NCBI RefSeq assembly: GCF_000264995.1
Contig: NW_006767435.1
Span: 1,051,523 to 1,115,522, forward strand
Length of the DNA stretch: 64,000 nucleotides
Origin: Punctularia strigosozonata HHB-11173 SS5
Lineage: Eukaryota; Basidiomycota; Agaricomycetes; Corticiales; Punctulariaceae
Reading direction: 5' to 3'
In this document: one piece after another, positions 12,869-55,793 of the stretch
Position numbering within the stretch: position 1 is the first letter of the stretch
Layout: the number at the start of each line of letters is the position of its first letter
Notes under the pieces: generated by a model
Told to the model about the DNA's origin: nothing
Databases searched by the model: none
Seen by the model: the letters and a program-made list of their open reading frames with translations, nothing else
Made by a program: the position numbers and the translations under genes

Positions 12869-14381
12869 ATGCAGTCTGTGCGCCTTGCGCTAGTGCTCGC
12901 TGCGGCATCGACGGTCCTTGCGGCGCCACAAGCAGTTTCCTCTCTGACGTCTGCAGCTGCATCGGCGGCTTCCAGCGTCACCAGCGATGCAGGGTCGATC
13001 GTTTCGTCCATAACGTCCGACGTTGCGAAGGCGTTGCCTAGTACGTAACACACCATTTCGACTTTGGAGACTCAATAGTCTGACCCATACATCCAGCCGT
13101 GCTAGGGAACTGGCCAAGCCTGAGTGACATCGAGAAGAAACTCAACCTGAATGACTCGGAGATCAATAGTCTGCCTCCGTCTGCGCTGATGATCCCTTCG
13201 TATGCGAATTTTACGCCTTCGGGGTACGTCTTGCGCCATGCACTTCGCAACTGTCAAAATGCTTAATACGACTTTTCAGATGGAACGTCCGCTTCTATGG
13301 CCTTGTCTATAAACAACCGAACGTCTCCACCGACGACCTCGACTCCATCATCGATGGCCTCAAGACAAAAAACCTAAACAACACCCAGAAAGCGCTCCTA
13401 CAGAACCGGACGCAGGCGCTCGCTGCGATCCCGATCTCCCGCGCGAACGTCTCCGCGATCGTCAAGCTAAACGGCACGCTCGCCACGCCGGGGGGTGGTA
13501 TCGGCCTCAATACATCTGACGAAGTCGGCGAACTCGACGAGTTCCGGATTATCCCTGGTTTGAACAGCAACAAGTCCGTCTCGAACGTACAAGTTGCTGA
13601 GATCGGCATCCTGGACGTGGACGGACCGGGCAACACGACTACGCTCCTGGTACCGGAAACGGGCATCTCTGTCGTCTCCGACATCGACGACGTCCTGCGC
13701 ATCACCAAGGTCTACGTCCCGAACCAAGGCCTCTTCAACTCGTTCGTGCAGCCGTACGTCAACGTGCCCGGCATGACGGAGCTCTTCGCCTCCTGGCTGA
13801 AGAAGCTCCCGGGCGTGTCCTTCCATTACGACACCACCACGCCCGTCGAGCTCACGCGGACCTACGTCGAGTACCTCTTCGACAACTTCCCTCTCGGCTC
13901 GCTCGAGATGCGGCCGGTGAACCTCACCGAGCCCTCGCAGATCCTCGACGCGCGCCTCGACTCGCTCGTCCGGCTCTACCAGACCTTCCCCCAGCGCAAG
14001 TTCGTCCTCGTCGGCGACACCTCGTCCTCCACCCTCCTCTCCGCCTACCCGAACGTGACGCAGACGTTCCCGAACCAGACGCAGTGCATCTTCATCCGCA
14101 ACACGTCCGCGACGGACGCGGACGACAAGCTGCCGTACAGCACGAAGGAGTTTCAGAACCTCAATTCGAGCATGTACTTCTTTTATCGCACGCCCGAGGA
14201 TATCGTGAACCTCGACGTCGCGAACAGAGAGTGCGTGAACGCGAGCGTGCCCCAGAACGTGTCGTTTGGAGAGCAGGGCGGGCCGTTCAAGAGCGGCGCG
14301 GCGGCGGCTTGGGCGACGGCTTCCCGCTCAAGCTGGGTTGCAGCTCTCGTTGCTCTGGCGCTCGGCGTTACGTTGACTTGA
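12869..14381 (+). CDS. Secreted App1/DUF2183-type phosphatase
   Basis: Three exons (12869..13040, 13097..13223, 13280..14381) give 466 residues. The protein has a clear signal peptide (RLALVLAAASTVLAAPQA), a Ser/Ala-rich stretch, about a dozen N-glycosylation sites, and the App1 phosphatidate-phosphatase core: VVSDIDDVLRIT (HAD-type DxDD loop), SWLKKLPGVSFHY, LRLYQTFP-like helix, and KFVLVGDTSSST. Yeast App1 dephosphorylates phosphatidate at cortical actin patches in the cytosol. Here the signal peptide and the hydrophobic C-terminal tail (SSWVAALVALALGVTLT), which resembles a GPI-anchor signal, point to the cell surface. The usual Thr after the second Asp pair is Val. Substrate is unknown; phospholipid or another phosphomonoester are possible. 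Confidence 0.88.
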
Positions 14382-15775: not shown

Positions 15776-17639
15776 ATGGACGACAACTCTGACCTTGAGG
15801 CTACGAAAGCCCGTGCTAGCTTCGTGGAAGCGTTTGCGCCGAACACGGCGCCAGCCGCCGCAGCCGCATCCTACAACAACCCATTCGACCTTGTCATTAT
15901 CGGATCGGGCATGGGCGGAGGTGTACTGGCATCCGACCTCATCGACAAGAACATACAGCTCATGACCGATACGTCATCTGTCACAGTGCGCAAAGTGGCC
16001 GTAGACGCCGCGGCTCTCTTTAGTGCAGTCCTACGGTTCATCTGCGGGAACGACAAAGAGGATCCAAGGGCAATCTCTGGCATACGAAAGCAAGCCGCTG
16101 ATCTATGCGAGAAGATCGTCCGGCTCTCCGCGCCTGATGACGTCGTGAACGACTTGGTTTCCGATGTGCGACGGCGTGCAGCCGATCTTTTCGAGAACCT
16201 GGCGAGCGCCGCTGGTTCACCCGCAGAAGTGCAGGATCTCGCGGTGCAAGGGCAAAAACTCATCGCCGATCTTGTCGAGATCACCCCGGATGCCTACAAC
16301 GGAGACATGGCCAGAGACCTTCTTTCCAAAGCTCGGGCCCTTTTCGAGAGCGTGGCGAAAGCGGCCATCGACGTCGAGCCTGTCCCCGATGCAACCAAAA
16401 AAGAAATCTTAAGGCAGGCCGAAAATGTTTTCACGAAAATCGTACAATACGTTCGTGTCCTTTTCATCGTCTGTATCGAGCTCCCTCCTGATTAATATTC
16501 GCTTACGACAGCGCACTCGTCCACGGAGGATTCTCGTCATCGAGCGAGGGGGCATCATCTACCCATCGTACAGCCTGAATGGTCCTCATCCTACGGGGAA
16601 TCCCGCAGACCAGGCCAACGACATCATCTACAGGCGATTCACACAACACTTTGGGCTCCATCCAAACATGAGACCTCAATGCGCTGCTCGTAACTGCTGC
16701 TCCTGTAGGAGAGGCTGCGAAGGACAATATCCAACTTGTCCTTGTACCAGGCCATGCGACAGGCTATGCGACAAGCCATGCGGCAGGCCACGCGAGCCAC
16801 GCGACAAGCCATGCGATTGTGTCAAGACATGGCAGGGCGGTGGAATTTTCATGCTCGGAGGGCGGAGTACCGTATGGGGTCTCTTTTCTCCCAGGTACGT
16901 GATAGTTTGACTCGTATTCTATGCCGGCGTTGACGGTTTGTTCATCAGAATTGCGCCAGAGACCTTGAAGAGCCATTGGCCGGAGGCTGTTCGCGATGAC
17001 CTCGCTAGGCCTTCGGGCTCATACTACCGAAGGGCGGAAGCAACGATGCGACTCTCTTACCCGACTACCTTACCCCTGCATCAACTTGTGATCAATAAGT
17101 TAAATGTTTCCATCGCCAGCTCCGCCGTCAAGGATAAGGACGATCAGTCGAAGTCGAAGTCCTGCAAGGACAAGGTCGATCAGCCGAAGTCGGCATCCTG
17201 CAAGGACAAGATCGATTCCTGGCCGCTGCCTGAAACGCAATGGCAATGGGGCAGAATCTCCTCCCAATTCCGCCACGATCGGAATTTTACCTTCGCCGAA
17301 GGCGCGTTCAGTACCGTGGACCGTCTTCTGACCGTCGCGATGATGAATCATCCAACGGAAGACGTTAGAGAGGACTTTGACGATGTACCTCCAGGCGGAG
17401 CACACATCCTGGTCAATACTCAAGTGCACCGATTCGAACCGGCACTGGGCTGCGAAGAATCTGTCTCCTCGCGGCCTTGCGTTGTTGTCAGAACGGTCGA
17501 TGGTCGAGACACATTGCCAAAGGAGTACAAGATCTATTATCACCATGCCGTCCTTTGTGCGGGCAGCGTCGAGAGCGCCGGCATACTTCTGCGAAGCGTC
17601 AATGGCGACCCGACTCGGTGCGGCGACGAATTCGCCTAG
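15776..17639 (+). pseudogene. GMC-like flavoprotein with helical insert, C-terminally truncated paralogue
   Basis: Exons 15776..16450, 16512..16894 and 16949..17639 join in phase to 582 residues. The protein opens with an FAD-binding loop (FDLVIIGSGMGGG), then about 165 residues of helical repeats (AADLCEKIVRL, AADLFENLASA, ARALFESVAKA). Next come the second beta-strand ILVIERGG, GGRSTVWGLF, and the middle of a GMC-type fold up to HAVLCAGSVESAGILLRS. It then stops; the paralogue at 49978..55793 goes on for about 350 more residues that carry the catalytic region. Both intron positions match that paralogue. A Cys-rich stretch (PCDRLCDKPCG type) comes from a DNA microrepeat at about 16740-16820 and is absent from the paralogue. 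It is probably a non-functional relic. An N-terminal-only product is possible but would lack the active site. Confidence 0.75.
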
Positions 17640-18134: not shown

Positions 18135-18845
18135 CATGACATGAGGCGATAAGCTATGCTCTATCCGTGGATACCGCATGGTACGTTCGAGATCCATCAG
18201 CATGCTGTGTGAACGGAATGGAAACATATTTTGGGGGTCATGATGGAGGTGATGAGTTATGCTCCGTCCGTGGATACCGCATGGTACGTTCGAGATCCAT
18301 CAGCATGCTGTGTGAACGGAATGGAAACATATTTTGGGGGTCATGATAGAGGCGATGAGTTATGCTCCGTCTGTGGATATCGCATGGTACGTTCAAGATC
18401 CATCAGCATGCTGTGTGAACAGAATGGAAACATATTTTGGGGTCATGATGGAGGCGATAAGCTATGCTCCATCCGTGGATACCGTATGGTACGTTCAAGA
18501 TCCATCAGCATGCTGTGTGAATGGAATGGAAACATATTTTGGGGGTCATGATGGAGGCGATGAGTTATGCTCCGTCCGTGGATACCGCATGGTACGTTCA
18601 AGATCCATCAGCATGCTGTGTGAACGGAATGGAAACATACTTTGGGGGTCATGATAGAGGCGATGAGTTATGCTCCGTCTGTGGATATCGCATGGTACGT
18701 TCAAGATCCATCAGCATGCTGTGTGAACAGAATGGAAACATATTTTGGGGTCATGATGGAGGCGATAAGCTATGCTCCATCCGTGGATACCGCATGGCAC
18801 GTTCGAGATCAATCAGCATGCTGTGTAAACTGAATGGAAACACGT
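18135..18845 (+). repeat. Minisatellite, 103-bp unit, 7 copies, with 309-bp higher-order period
   Basis: Seven units of about 103 bp start near 18141, 18245, 18348, 18450, 18553, 18656 and 18758. Each contains CATCAGCATGCTGTGTGAAC. Three unit types can be told apart (GAGTTATGCTCCGTCCGTGG, GAGTTATGCTCCGTCTGTGG, AAGCTATGCTCCATCCGTGG). Units 2-4 and 5-7 repeat the same order, so a three-unit block of about 309 bp has been duplicated. The open frames across it are by-products of the repeat. Confidence 0.92.
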
Positions 18846-49977: not shown

Positions 49978-52900
49978 TCAGAACGCACCATGAACAGGAT
50001 AGTGGATAGAAGATGATCGCGAGGCTTGCGTACTGATATACGAGATGGGCCCCGTCGATTTATCGCCGAAGCCAACAGGGAGGCCGTCCAAGCCTTCGGG
50101 GTGTCCTTCTCCCCACGGAGACGGGTGAGGGAGAGGCACCACTGGCGCTGGGGGTGGCGCGACAATGAGTGCGACAGTCCCGGGCCAAACGGCCTGGACC
50201 GAGAAATCGGGCTGAGACGGGGGCCGTTCACTCCACACGGAAAGCAAGGGGGTAGGCCGTGGCACAGCGTACACGAACAGTGCTTCCCTCGTCTGCCGCT
50301 TCCACTCGCAGTAATTTCCCGGCGCAATCACAGACTCCAGAGGCCCCATGGCCTGCGCGTCTGATGAGTTCTCTGAGAGGGTCACGCGAGCGTAGACATC
50401 GATGGGCGTCATGTTGTAAACACGGATGGGCCGGGATGTGCGGAGCACCTGGCGTGGGGGGATGAGATAGTCGGAATGGCGGAGCGCCAGTGCGGCTAGG
50501 GTGAGGGAGGGATTCGCGCCAGGCGAGTGCGGGAAAACGGAGAGGTCGCAGACGGAGACGTTGCTCCACCCGTACTTCATCTTCAAGTCGTGGTCAACGA
50601 TCCCGCCCTTGTTGTCGTGGTCAGGCATTGGAATAGTGCCCAACTCGTGGGCGACGGTTCCGAGAGGAATTGTGCCAAGTTTGACCTTGCTGTCCAGATC
50701 TTCAAGCGAGATAAGATTGAACACATGTGGAGAAGAGCCGACGTTTGTCTGTTCCAGATATTGAAGATTGAGCGTGGTGGCGATCGCCTTCATGGACGCG
50801 AGGGCGAAACTGCGCATGACCTCCTTCTTCTCTTCCAGATAGGGAACCTTGGCGAAGTCAACGTCAATGACGGGGTGTTGTCTAGACGAATCGAGTTTGA
50901 CGGAGTTGTTTGGATTCAGACAAGTGGGGAGCATGTAGACGATGACGAGTTGCGGGAATCGGGTGGCAGAAAGACATCCTCGAGGTAGGAAGGATTCAGC
51001 GTCCACGGAGATGTTAACGAGTGCGGTCCCTTGGGGTTTGCCCTCCTTATCACGAAACGTGATATCCGTCTGGAGCTTCATGCCACCGAGCATGTCTCTG
51101 TACATCATGTTCCGATACACGAATGGCAGCGTCACATAGAGCATATGATGATCTGTAAGACGCCCGAATTCCTCTGTGAAATTGCCCCCATACTGACTAG
51201 TATCGCCGTCCACGCTTCGTAACAAGATGGCAGCGCTTTCGACGCTGCCGGCGCATAAGACAGCATGTCGACAATGGATCTTGAAGTCCTTTCCGTCATG
51301 CCTCACCACAACACGCGCGAGAGGTCGACCCGCCGTGTTGCTCCCAGGCTGTGATTCGAGGCGGTGTACTTGCGCGTTGACCATCACGTGGGCGCCGCCA
51401 GGGGGAACCTCGTCGAGGTCAACAGGTGTATCTTTCTCAGGATGGTTATCCATGGCTGTTGTCAGAAGACGGTCCACTGTGCTATACGCGCCCTCCGCGA
51501 AGGTGAAGTTGCGATCGTCCCTGAACCGAGAGGCCACTCTACCCCACTGCCAGTGCGGGGTGGGGAGAGGCCATGCCGCGCTTCGCTGCTCCGGCGAGTC
51601 GTCAATACAGAGGTTCAGCTTATCGATGAGGAGTTGATGAAGAGGGAGAGAGACTGGGTACGAAAGTCGCAATGCGCCTTCGGCCCTTCTGTAGTACGAA
51701 GCCGCAGGGTTAAGTAGAAGATCGTCGCAAATTTCTTGGGGCCAGTGGCCGCACAAGGTGTCGCTCGTGATCCTGAGGACAAGTTCTTTTATCAGCTCCA
51801 CGTAGAATGCATCGGGTACGGAGGCCGTTTCCCGCCAGGTCTCCAGTGAGCGCCACGCGCTGTCACGCTGCTGGCCACCCACCGCAGCAACGGTATACCC
51901 GCTAGCAGACCCCTCTGTGGCCAGGCGAAAATACATACGCACGTAGCAGAAAGCATTTATGGTAGGTAAACATCAATTGAAATGAATTTACTACAGGCCA
52001 CGTTGTATATTTGTGCGGTGATGAGGCGCGTGCACCCGGGCGAGCGCTTGACATGACCCAGAACACGTCCTCTTCAGGTCGTGCCTATACGGCGGTTTGT
52101 ATATTCTTTCCCTGGAAAAACTGCGCATGGTTGACGTGTGCACCGCGTAACAGTACAATTCTCCAATAACGGAGTTGGTCACTCTCTATTCAGTACCCCT
52201 ATTGATCAGGGTGACGCAGGCAACGGCTGGCAATCAATCGAGGCTGTCTTGATTCGGTAAGGTTTTTACACATCTGTATACAAACCATAGTATGTGTACT
52301 GACGCGGGTCCAGGCTCAACAATACCTATGCTACTTCCCCTCGGTTCCCAGTGTATGGGCCCGAGTCCAACGGCACGATGAGTCTGATAGGTAGCCATAT
52401 TGTTATCACAAGTACTCGTGGATCATTGACGTTTGGGACGTGTCTTTCACAGATGGGTCCGGACCCGGCGGTTACACTGAGCTGATCCCCGAGCGAGTTG
52501 CCGAAACTCGTGCGCTCGCGGATTCGCTCAATCTCCTGCCCTACCTTACGGGGTCAGGGAGATTGTTCGCTGCATCGTTTAGGGACAAAACCTACACTTC
52601 CGCCAGGGTCGACTGGATGATCTCCTTCGTGCACTGATTTCTGTGCGGGCATTCATTTGGCAACACCACCTAGTCAACCGTGGAGAATGGGTGGTAATTG
52701 TGCCTCTGCAGCCGCTTGCTAGTGCCACCTTGACGACACGGCTTCGGTTGCAAACTCCAGACCAACATCGACGGTACTTCTCGGCTAGCCAACGCTGCCG
52801 CTCGTGCTTCTGTACAGAGAGTTACCCGCAACACCATTGCGCTCTCTAATCTTGCCCGTGCCACTGCCGCTGCCCTAGGTGCCTATGATCGCTCACGCGC

Positions 52901-55793
52901 CCTCTCCGAGCAGGAGCGAAGGGTGAAGGACGACAAGCTCAACTTCGCCGTCACACTGCTATGCCGTGCGAGCGGCGTGTTCGCGTACGTGTCTGAAGCC
53001 GTGCTTCCGCAGTGGGAGGAGGGGATCGCCGGCAAGCCAGGGATCTCCCGCCCTCCCGATCTGAACAGGGAGGTCACCATCGGCCTCTCCAAGTGCGCGT
53101 TATTCCCTGCATCTGGATTGTTACCAGCAAAGAGGCTTGCACATTCCCGCAGGATGGCGCTCATGGACGCGCAGACGCTCGCGATCCACAAGCTGCTCAC
53201 GAAGGCGACGGTCGAAAGCACGTTCTCGCTGGGCCCGCCGCTCCCGAAATTGCACCCATCGCCGGTGCTCGTGGCGAAGCTGCACCTCGAGTGCGCAGAG
53301 ACCTACGCCTCCGCGCTCGAGCTTGCCAAGACGCCCGGCGCGTCGCACAAGCCGAAACATCCTTTTGGACTCGGGAAGTAAGACGCGGACGATGACGGCG
53401 CCGGAGGGGGCGAAGTCGCGAGCGAGCTGAGAAGGTATTTGGCGGACGAACACACGTTGCACGCGGTGCTGGCGCACAAGTGGCTCGGCGTCGATGCGGG
53501 CTCGGCGTCGGGCGGCGCGCGGGGAGGCGGGCTCGGCCGTCACTTTTCTGGCGTGGGCGAAGCGCGAGCTGGACGAGCTCGGCCGGCGCGGGGTGAGCGT
53601 CGGCGGCGGCTCGCGGGAGGATGACATGCGCAAAAGGCGGAGGCACGCACGTGGCTGAGGGTCGAGAGCAGCTCCACCGCCGCCGGCAGCTGGTCATCGA
53701 CAAAGACGACGACTTCATGATCCCTTACGCGACGATTTTCAGGGTCATGTATATGACTGCGGTACGCGAGCGGCGCAGTCGCTGGGTTATATTCACAAGA
53801 CGAAGGTTGTCGGAAAGGCGCACGAGTGCACTGGTATTGTGGCAGTGCACAAGGGCGGTCACAATGGTATCTTTCTCGATATTCTCCTGTATCATCTCTT
53901 GTTATGATATTGTTTTACAAGAGAAATATTAAGGAGAGATTTGGCGCAGCACAGGGGTCCAGTATCTAGAGGGAAAGGATTACTGTGCATCCACCCCTAA
54001 TGCAACATCGCCCCCTAATGCAACATCGCCCCCTAATGCAACATCGACACAAATCCCTCTCCCGTTCCTTTCCTGCTCAGCTGTTTGTCTCGGAAAAAAA
54101 TATATGTACTCTCAAACATCTATAAATACTGTATGTAAGAGATGAAGTAGGAACGAGGCTTGGTTCGGGCTACAGAAAAACATTAGGACTGCTCGAGTGA
54201 GTTGATGCAACATGTCGCGAGTACTCCACGGCCTCGCTTCGCCGGATCGGTAGCGCAAAATTCATGGAAATATTTGGTAGTACTCAATACCTTGTATCCT
54301 ATCTGCTACGCCATCCCGATTTGCGATTGCTGTAATAATGCCGCTGTAGGAGGATGTTCAACACAAAGGACGATGTTGGCGTGACGGATGAGTTCAAACT
54401 CCGCCTGCGTTGATTGGCCTGAGCCGCTTGAGCCCTGCGTTGCGCTGCAGCCTGTCCTAGTTCGGCACCTCGGCAAATCGTGACCGCGTGTGATGATCTC
54501 GCAACTTTGGCTGGTGCTCACTTCGTCTCGCCGGCATCTCGCTGGCAGAGTTGAGGCTCAACCAAAATATTTGAGACGCTGGATGACATATCTATAGCAT
54601 CCTGGCTATATACTACCAAAGTTTCGGACAATTTCAAGCTGATTTGAGGGAGATATAACCCCAATGCAACATGCGTTGCATTAGGGGTGGATGCACAGTA
54701 GCCGCGATGGCCACAGGATGCCAAAGATGGCCCAGTGTGACAACAATGCCGCGTCACGTCCCGTCACGCCACCTCACAGACCTGGCGGGAAACGGCCTCC
54801 GTAATCGGGTCTGCTCATACCTGGGAATAAACAAGCCCCATACTGTGCTTCGGCCTCCTAGGGTGAAGACAGCTCCTCCGTTCCAGTTTCCACGCTCGGG
54901 ATTTTCCGCAAACTGACACCGGAAACGACGGAAAAAAGTGTCGTTGGCCTGATCTGCAGGATTGTGCGTGGGTTGAGGGCCATTCAGACTATGCGAATGG
55001 AAGATCAGGCCGCCCCTGTCAATGATCAGGATCCTTCTGGGCCGGCCACGCTATTGGACGAAGTCAGCGATGCGAGTCTGTAGAATGACACAGCCAAACC
55101 TACGTATTTGATACACTTTACGAAGAGCTTGGCAGCTTCCCCCGGGAGATCTCTCTTCGTCCAGCCAACCTCAGGACTCTCAGGCCAAGATACGACATAG
55201 TTGAAAACATCCGCTGCTTCTTGTTGGATGTCTGTCTCTAGGTCTCCAGTGACGACACCTGATGCGAATCCGGAGAGAGACGCTATCAAGTCAGCAGCCT
55301 GCGCTGCGATAGCGGACTTATCGTTCGGGGTTTGGACGAGGGCATTTGCAATCCTTTCAAACAAGTCGGCAGCCTGTTCCCGCATCTTGCGGGCCTCTGG
55401 TGCGATTTGATAGTCAGGAACAGATGAGCGTACGATAATATCGCAGAGGGCCGCAGCTCCCACCCGAACGGCGGAGATGAACAACTTGAGATCGGTATGG
55501 TCTCCCTCGGCAAATTGCGCGATCGACTCGAAAAGGTGTTTGGCGAGTCGTTGGACATCCTCAACGGTCGACTGGGACGTGACTGACGCCGTATTCGCGG
55601 CCAGCTGCAGGTTTTTTTCGATGAGATCGGAGGCAAGCACGCCGCCTCCCATGCCAGATCCGATGATAACGATGTCGAATGGATTCTTGTGTGAGTGATC
55701 GGCGACTTCATCGGGCTTCAGAGCGTGGAAGTATCCCTCCACAATGCTGGCACAGGCTATAACGCCCGGGGAATGAGTATCGTTACTGGCCAT
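49978..55793 (-). CDS. GMC-like flavoprotein with helical-repeat insert and beta-rich C-terminus, 904 aa
   Basis: Three exons on the minus strand (55793..55104, 55050..54821, 51772..49978) join in phase to 904 residues. The intron between exons 2 and 3 is 3048 bp because it holds a transposon. Order: FAD loop DIVIIGSGMGGG (about residues 38-50); six helical repeats at about 62-235 (AKHLFESIAQF, AAALCDIIVRS, AADLFERIANA, AADLIASLSGF, AADVFNYVVSW, AAKLFVKCIKY); second strand ILIIDRGG; GGRSTVWGLF. The GMC middle part follows (HAVLCAGSVESAAILLRS), then the C-terminal signature DLSVFPHSPGANPSL near residue 722, and finally about 100 extra residues (RPIRVYNMTPIDVYARVTL, REALFVYAVPRPTPLLSVW) that look beta-rich. 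GMC enzymes oxidise alcohols or sugars with FAD; STVWG is reminiscent of the pyranose-2-oxidase group. No signal peptide is seen. The start at 55793 was preferred over 55823 by comparison with the paralogue. Confidence 0.85.
52300..53760 (+). pseudogene. palC-like (BRO1-domain pH-signalling) gene copy inside the transposon
   Basis: Pieces in all three plus frames line up with the BRO1-type pH-response protein PalC: VSFTDGSGPGGYTELIPERV, then LTGSGRLFAASFRDKTYTSA, GEWVVIVPLQPLASATLTTR, RNTIALSNLARATAAALGAY and DDKLNFAVTLLCRASGVFAY. After a kept intron (about 53094..53154) come MALMDAQTLAIHKLLTKA, LGPPLPKLHPSPVLVAKLHL and ELRRYLADEHTLHAVLAHKW. PalC links the ESCRT machinery to the Pal/Rim alkaline-pH pathway. 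Several frame changes and a stop after KTPGASHKPKHPFGLGK mean this copy cannot make the protein. The retained introns show capture from genomic DNA. The family call rests on recognition by eye; another BRO1-domain protein is the alternative. Confidence 0.65.
53983..54698. mobile_element. 716-bp MITE with TA target site, nested in the palC-bearing element
   Basis: Perfect 24-bp inverted ends (CTGTGCATCCACCCCTAATG plus CAAC) occur at 53983..54006 and 54675..54698, flanked by TA at 53981..53982 and 54699..54700. Next to the left end, CCCCCTAATGCAACATCG repeats three times; a related palindrome (CCCCAATGCAACAT...) sits at the right end. No coding capacity. End sequence and target site suggest a Tc1/mariner- or Fot/pogo-type MITE. 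Confidence 0.85.

Follow-up and report, generated by a model that had tools for sequence, protein, structure and literature searches.

Can the first Rossmann unit of a flavoprotein, a stretch tightly spaced in the GMC branch measured here and used to find FAD enzymes, harbor a whole domain between its helix A and its strand 2, and what might such a domain do? The question is raised by a gene, called gene A here, that lies in a 64,000-nucleotide stretch of fungal DNA (the window, C3:1051523-1115522 of a 33.6-Mb genome in 32 contigs). We compared gene A with its relatives in the same genome, and searched its parts against sequence and structure databases.

Gene A and the position of its insert

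Gene A (55793..49978, minus strand) was modeled with three exons, the splice sites being picked by eye and by comparison of four related genes. All three exons are open and, once spliced, give exactly 904 amino acids, the length proposed in the preliminary description. Its parts are as follows.

55104..55793, minus strand: exon 1, an open frame with the N terminus, Rossmann strand 1, GxGxxG, helix A, and the whole helical insert; donor TAC/GTAGGT, phase 0
55104..55601, minus strand: helical insert, residues 65-230, six units (from the repeats and the codon-position bias)
55051..55103, minus strand: intron 1, 53 nt, phase 0, at the junction of insert and strand 2; position common to genes C and D, intron lacking in gene B
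54821..55050, minus strand: exon 2, from Rossmann strand 2 (RRILIIDRGG) through GGRSTVWGLFIPR (splice model)
51773..54820, minus strand: intron 2, 3,048 nt, phase 2; its counterparts measure 52 nt (B), 54 nt (C), and 61 nt (D)
49978..51772, minus strand: exon 3, the remaining GMC protein with the catalytic motifs and a C-terminal extension (GMC_oxred_C match)
50626..50649, minus strand: HELGTIPM, residues 682-689, the GMC histidine motif (sequence and alignment)
50512..50514, minus strand: Asn 727 in SPGANPSL, the second catalytic residue by alignment (Ser in gene B)

The protein thus runs from strand 1 through GSGMGG (from residue 45) and helix A into a 166-residue insert (residues 65-230), followed by RGRPRRILIIDRGG, with the strand-2 acid at residue 241. 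From the first Gly of GxGxxG to this acid we counted 196 residues in A, 193 in C, 192 in D, and 37 in B. As a yardstick, we took a further GMC protein encoded in this genome and used the 80 best of its 135 prokaryotic relatives, which represent one branch near that query and do not survey all GMC proteins; 75 were measurable, and the spacing was 24 residues in 73, 23 in one, and 86 in one. The value of 86 comes from a false upstream start, since the locus string contains a normal 24-residue unit. Within the genome itself, the spacing could be measured in only one to two GMC genes (22 and 24, on their own counting scale), because introns break the others. The spacing of about 24 residues from Gly to acid is therefore found in none of A, C, D, and B, even the 37 residues of B being 13 longer than the prokaryotic yardstick. 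The insert between GxGxxG/helix A and strand 2, on which the preliminary description was built, is real, as is its occurrence at the matching place, with the adjoining phase-0 intron, in the paralog at 15776..17639. In the titles, abstract openings, and passages surveyed in the open-licence literature of PubMed Central, there was no description of an insertion at the helix-A/strand-2 site.

Beyond the GMC domain, the C terminus of gene A (49978-50472) and the ends of B and D form a conserved extension of 164 to 173 residues. A search of the genome with it up to an E value of 10 returned A, B, and D only; it had no Pfam match, and its best match in the PDB had an E value of 0.7.

The insert consists of six repeat units

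The units of gene A are anchored at residues 84, 113, 141, 166, 193, and 220, and successive AADLFE-I anchors are 29/28/25/27/27 residues apart in A, 29/28/24/27/29 in C, and 29/28/24/27/28 in D. The six repeats announced earlier are thus borne out, whereas a constant unit of about 28 residues is not, the spacing varying from 24 to 29 across the three proteins. When a profile was built from two of the insert-bearing proteins, its six best nonoverlapping matches in the third were exactly that protein's six units in all three tests, and none of 1,000 shuffles reached the profile score in any of them. Since the three inserts are homologous, units of the same index were also left out of training; 17 of the 18 units still scored with a P value of 0.0044 or less, and the remaining one, unit 4 of C, with 0.0158. 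Plain self-comparison gave a weaker signal: the lag test returned P values of 0.008 (A), 0.001 (C), and 0.012 (D), and gapped self-alignment against 60 shuffles each returned z scores of 3.7, 10.0, and 6.3, the observed score of gene A (48) falling below its best shuffle (49).

The mean helical moment at 100 degrees was reached by none of 300 shuffles in A, C, or D. The sequence of each unit suggests a single helix, some 20 residues long, followed by a turn, so that the six together may form a helical bundle. The insert carries a net charge of -8 in A, -5 in C, and -11 in D.

The insert is coding and evolves more quickly than the core

In A, C, and D, the insert is open, in frame, and coding. 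Differences among the three fall on 64 to 72% of third codon positions and on 39 to 51% of first and second positions, and the excess at third positions is significant in each pair (P = 1.4e-7, 1.2e-4, and 1.3e-4). Its pN of 0.46 to 0.47 is below its pS of 0.64 to 0.79, yet above the pN of the core for the same pairs (0.25 to 0.32), which indicates that the insert is kept although it changes faster. Identity is 30 to 34% in the insert and 52 to 60% in the core.

A family of four genes, one of which probably lost the insert

Searches of the genome gave four known members, all on the contig that carries the window.

C3:396708-393782: gene D, 929 aa; open full-length frame with the insert and short introns
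C3:1115694-1118022: gene B, 758 aa; open full-length frame, just past the end of the window
15776..16450, plus strand: gene C exon 1, with the insert (15962-16450, 163 aa; splice model)
16512..16894, plus strand: gene C exon 2, which includes an additional Cys-rich repeat stretch (splice model and repeat analysis)
16949..17639, plus strand: gene C exon 3, which ends early (a genome search with exon 3 of gene A matched it with its first part only)

Only D combines the insert, full length, and short introns. Gene C, the paralog named in the preliminary description, is a truncated gene of 582 amino acids that ends before the catalytic part. B has neither the insert nor intron 1: its sequence there is NLQLVASAGTSRRKPRRILVIERGG, and it becomes similar to A, C, and D again at the codon after their intron-1 acceptor. 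The view of the insert as a family trait therefore holds for A, C, and D and fails for B.

Core identity is 67% between A and B, 55% between A and D, and 52% between B and D. For A and B, a dN of 0.23 against a dS of 1.08 points to a core under constraint; the dS of the other pairs is 2.08 or more, near saturation. The codon tree groups A with B and C with D (AB/CD, 100/100), rejecting A with C (p-AU 0.017) and not A with D (p-AU 0.069), and trees under nucleotide models give the same grouping (78/76 and 89/80 on two column sets), while a quartet under a protein mixture model leaves the four genes open, with a lean toward A with D (41/4). Because the codon tree favors A and B as sisters, B probably lost the insert, and a single loss of insert and intron together is the simplest reading. 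A root on the branch of B would turn this loss into a gain, but the dS values speak against it.

A transposon in gene A and other features of the window

The unusual length of intron 2 in gene A is due to a mobile element.

51817..54803: DNA transposon in intron 2 of gene A, 2,987 bp; 26-bp perfect terminal inverted repeats, ATCGGG on both sides

Relatives of its end sequences occur on contigs C1, C12, C14, and C21. The element carries a fragment resembling a BRO1-domain gene (frame 52734-53378, 3.6e-6, below the Pfam cutoff), and a stretch 91% identical to it, belonging to a frame whose BRO1 score exceeds the cutoff, is present at C3:2241261-2242082. The transposon looks like a case of gene capture. 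Nested in it is a second element of about 720 bp (53981-54700) with 26-bp inverted repeats of its own and at least 11 other near-full-length copies in the genome (79 to 97% identity).

Gene C contains coding tandem repeats at 16748-16816 and 17129-17216, which A and B lack and D lacks for the most part; in them, a 12-nt unit encodes a Cys/Pro-rich stretch and a 36-nt unit a Lys/Asp-rich stretch. Downstream of this truncated gene lies a minisatellite (18143-18842; 103-nt unit, 6.8 copies, 92% matches). The genes of the window have introns, and some of its frames encode Plavaka transposase or KDZ-associated CxC2 domains, features that suggest an agaricomycete fungus.

No natural relative of the insert was found in the databases searched

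Searched alone by profile, the insert had no match over the Pfam cutoff, in line with the novelty suggested for it earlier, and nothing better than 0.023 among the PHROGs. TetR_C_33 (PF13305) was considered and rejected: it matched the insert of A only, one of the three inserts, with 20.3 bits against a cutoff of 26.8. Against the PDB, only two entries fell below 0.001, both helical: 9r1o (9.7e-6), which we take from its name to be a designed protein, and 7udj (6.3e-4), which is titled as one. Kinship to either was rejected, the matches being read as the regular amphipathic composition of helical bundle and repeat designs. No natural family was thus found for the insert in the Pfam, PHROGs, and PDB searches.

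Within the genome, searches up to an E value of 10, with the best candidates scored, returned the insert in A, C, and D only. The pattern of the family alignment, scanned against prokaryotic and viral DNA, matched at 83 and 44 places, among which tblastn found no relative, and tblastn of B against plasmid records found none either.

What the insert may do

In a Rossmann unit, the C-terminal ends of the strands and the N-terminal end of helix A hold FAD, and the connection from helix A to strand 2 runs along the opposite edge. An insert in this connection would therefore more likely serve docking or self-association than capping. The explanation that we prefer, and to which we give an even chance, is that of a self-contained six-helix domain that provides an outward docking or self-association surface, leaves the FAD chemistry in place, and was lost in B. 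The block of about 165 codons that ends the exon, with the phase-0 intron directly after it, would encode six amphipathic helices, one per repeat, seated where helix A connects to strand 2 in the presumed FAD-binding unit. Antiparallel helices that are even in number would bring the chain back to its point of exit, so that the Rossmann unit could close as usual and both FAD and the His/Asn chemistry could be kept. The domain would point outward at the side of the fold, as a docking or self-association surface and not as a lid, by analogy with the insertions linked to oligomerization at other sites of pyranose and alcohol oxidases, and B would have lost it together with the intron while keeping the enzyme core. 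Several observations weigh against this explanation: the protein quartet leans toward A with D, a grouping that the codon test does not reject; the insert evolves more rapidly than the core, which would be expected of a loosely constrained spacer; and the likeness to pyranose oxidase is thin, other GMC structures following close behind.

Exchangeable apolipoproteins are built of proline-punctuated amphipathic helices, and the insert could, by the same logic, be a lipid- or membrane-binding patch that recruits the enzyme to membranes or lipid droplets. Its units are amphipathic with Pro and Gly breaks, their helical moment is beyond the reach of 300 shuffles, and upstream of gene C there is a frame (13170-14378) that encodes an APP1 phosphatidate phosphatase domain. 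We nevertheless consider this role doubtful, as the negative net charge of all three inserts is unfavorable for acidic membranes, no lipid-binding family appears among the Pfam matches, and a single APP1 neighbor is weak evidence.

That the insert is a tolerated, fast-changing spacer in a decaying family is unlikely in our judgment. Its identity is little above half that of the core, B does without it, C is truncated, and gene A has been struck by a transposon. However, the spacing of the six units is nearly exact in three deeply split paralogs, and the reading frame and codon bias are preserved. As for the repeats capping the FAD site or the substrate entrance, as the preliminary description had it, the insert does lie inside the FAD-binding unit in sequence, but the connection that holds it belongs, by Rossmann topology, to the edge away from the cofactor, and B retains the enzyme core without it; we consider this role very improbable. 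Finally, a gene-model artifact, with the insert normally spliced out, would account for the direct passage of B from helix A to strand 2 and for its resumption at the intron-1 acceptor codon of A, C, and D, but it is most improbable given the coding signal within the insert and the lack of a suitable donor: all three modeled donors have the form GTNNGT, which, checked by eye, recurs at none of the 46 phase-0 GT sites within the inserts of A, C, and D, so that in-frame skipping is unlikely.

With the docking or self-association domain as the preferred reading, these genes may represent, though we put this at somewhat short of an even chance, an undescribed fungal GMC clade. In this clade, an exon-bounded six-helix domain would occupy the helix-A/strand-2 crossover, break the Gly-acid spacing, and have been cleanly lost, with its intron, in one gene whose catalytic Asn became Ser; it would be a removable module tuning the location or the partners of the enzyme. 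A domain inserted in the first Rossmann unit would show that a large detour is tolerated there. The insert-free sister B offers a natural control for testing the role of the domain.

A divergent GMC protein and its known relatives

GMC_oxred_C (PF05199) matches three of the four members (best 2.2e-15; A with 57.4 and B with 54.7 bits against a cutoff of 24.6; 3.1e-15 for the gene A frame 49981-51957), C having no match because it stops before that part. GMC_oxred_N (PF00732) is matched weakly by three of the four (best E value 0.0041, 17.4 bits) and stays below its cutoff of 23, which the insert may help explain, though the insert-free B is also below. GSGMGG or GTGMGG is found near the N terminus in all four members and HELGT in A, B, and D; at the second catalytic position, A and D have Asn where B has Ser (SPGASPSL).

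The best solved relative is the pyranose oxidase 9fl2 (3e-7 by profile), with the pyranose dehydrogenase 4h7u close (1.1e-6); B alone matched 9fl2 with 2.1e-7, the next entry following at 2.5e-4. In NCBIfam, MftG (all four members, best 1.2e-9; B with 35.3 bits against an equivalog cutoff of 387.45) and cholesterol oxidase (three of four; B with 31.7 bits against 850) rank above pyranose oxidase, all far below their cutoffs. Pyranose oxidase itself (TIGR02462) was rejected as a family assignment, being matched by one of the four members with 13.1 bits against an equivalog cutoff of 544.9. The stretch GIHWTCATPR of 9fl2 aligns to STVWGLFIPR; the His of its IHW, which we take to be the flavin-linking residue, is replaced by Val in the family (TVW). 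Based on the family matches, the missing flavin-linking His, and the catalytic pairs, A to D are a divergent GMC protein with some likeness to pyranose oxidase that lies, by the tests of that family, outside it.

The likeness extends to several features. The branch of pyranose oxidase and C-glycoside oxidase (9fl2, 8qve) has in common with the present family a GG-W-PR stretch and the His motif, an Asn as the second catalytic residue, as in A and D, and N termini that lack a signal peptide (judged by eye for the family). Unlike pyranose oxidases, A, B, and D have the extra C-terminal extension of 164 to 173 residues.

Other GMC enzymes carry insertions as well. Those of pyranose oxidases (head, arm, and insertion-1) differ in name and size from the present insert in the part of PMC10807413 that we drew on, and a passage of PMC6509819 treats the head site and the insertion site of alcohol oxidase as equivalent. 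Insertions in both enzymes are linked to oligomerization in sections of these two reports (PMC10807413, PMC6509819). The fungal GMC proteins with an alcohol oxidase or head-domain insertion, which the same portions of PMC6509819 tie to oligomerization, resemble A, C, and D in being GMC proteins with an inserted domain, but they carry it near the C terminus, whereas that of A, C, and D lies between helix A and strand 2. CtFDO from Chaetomium thermophilum, as described in excerpts of PMC8171062, is likewise a fungal GMC protein with extra helices and has a His-Ser pair, as the alignment suggests for B; its extra helices, however, are at residues 367-400 and 407-457, and A and D have His-Asn.
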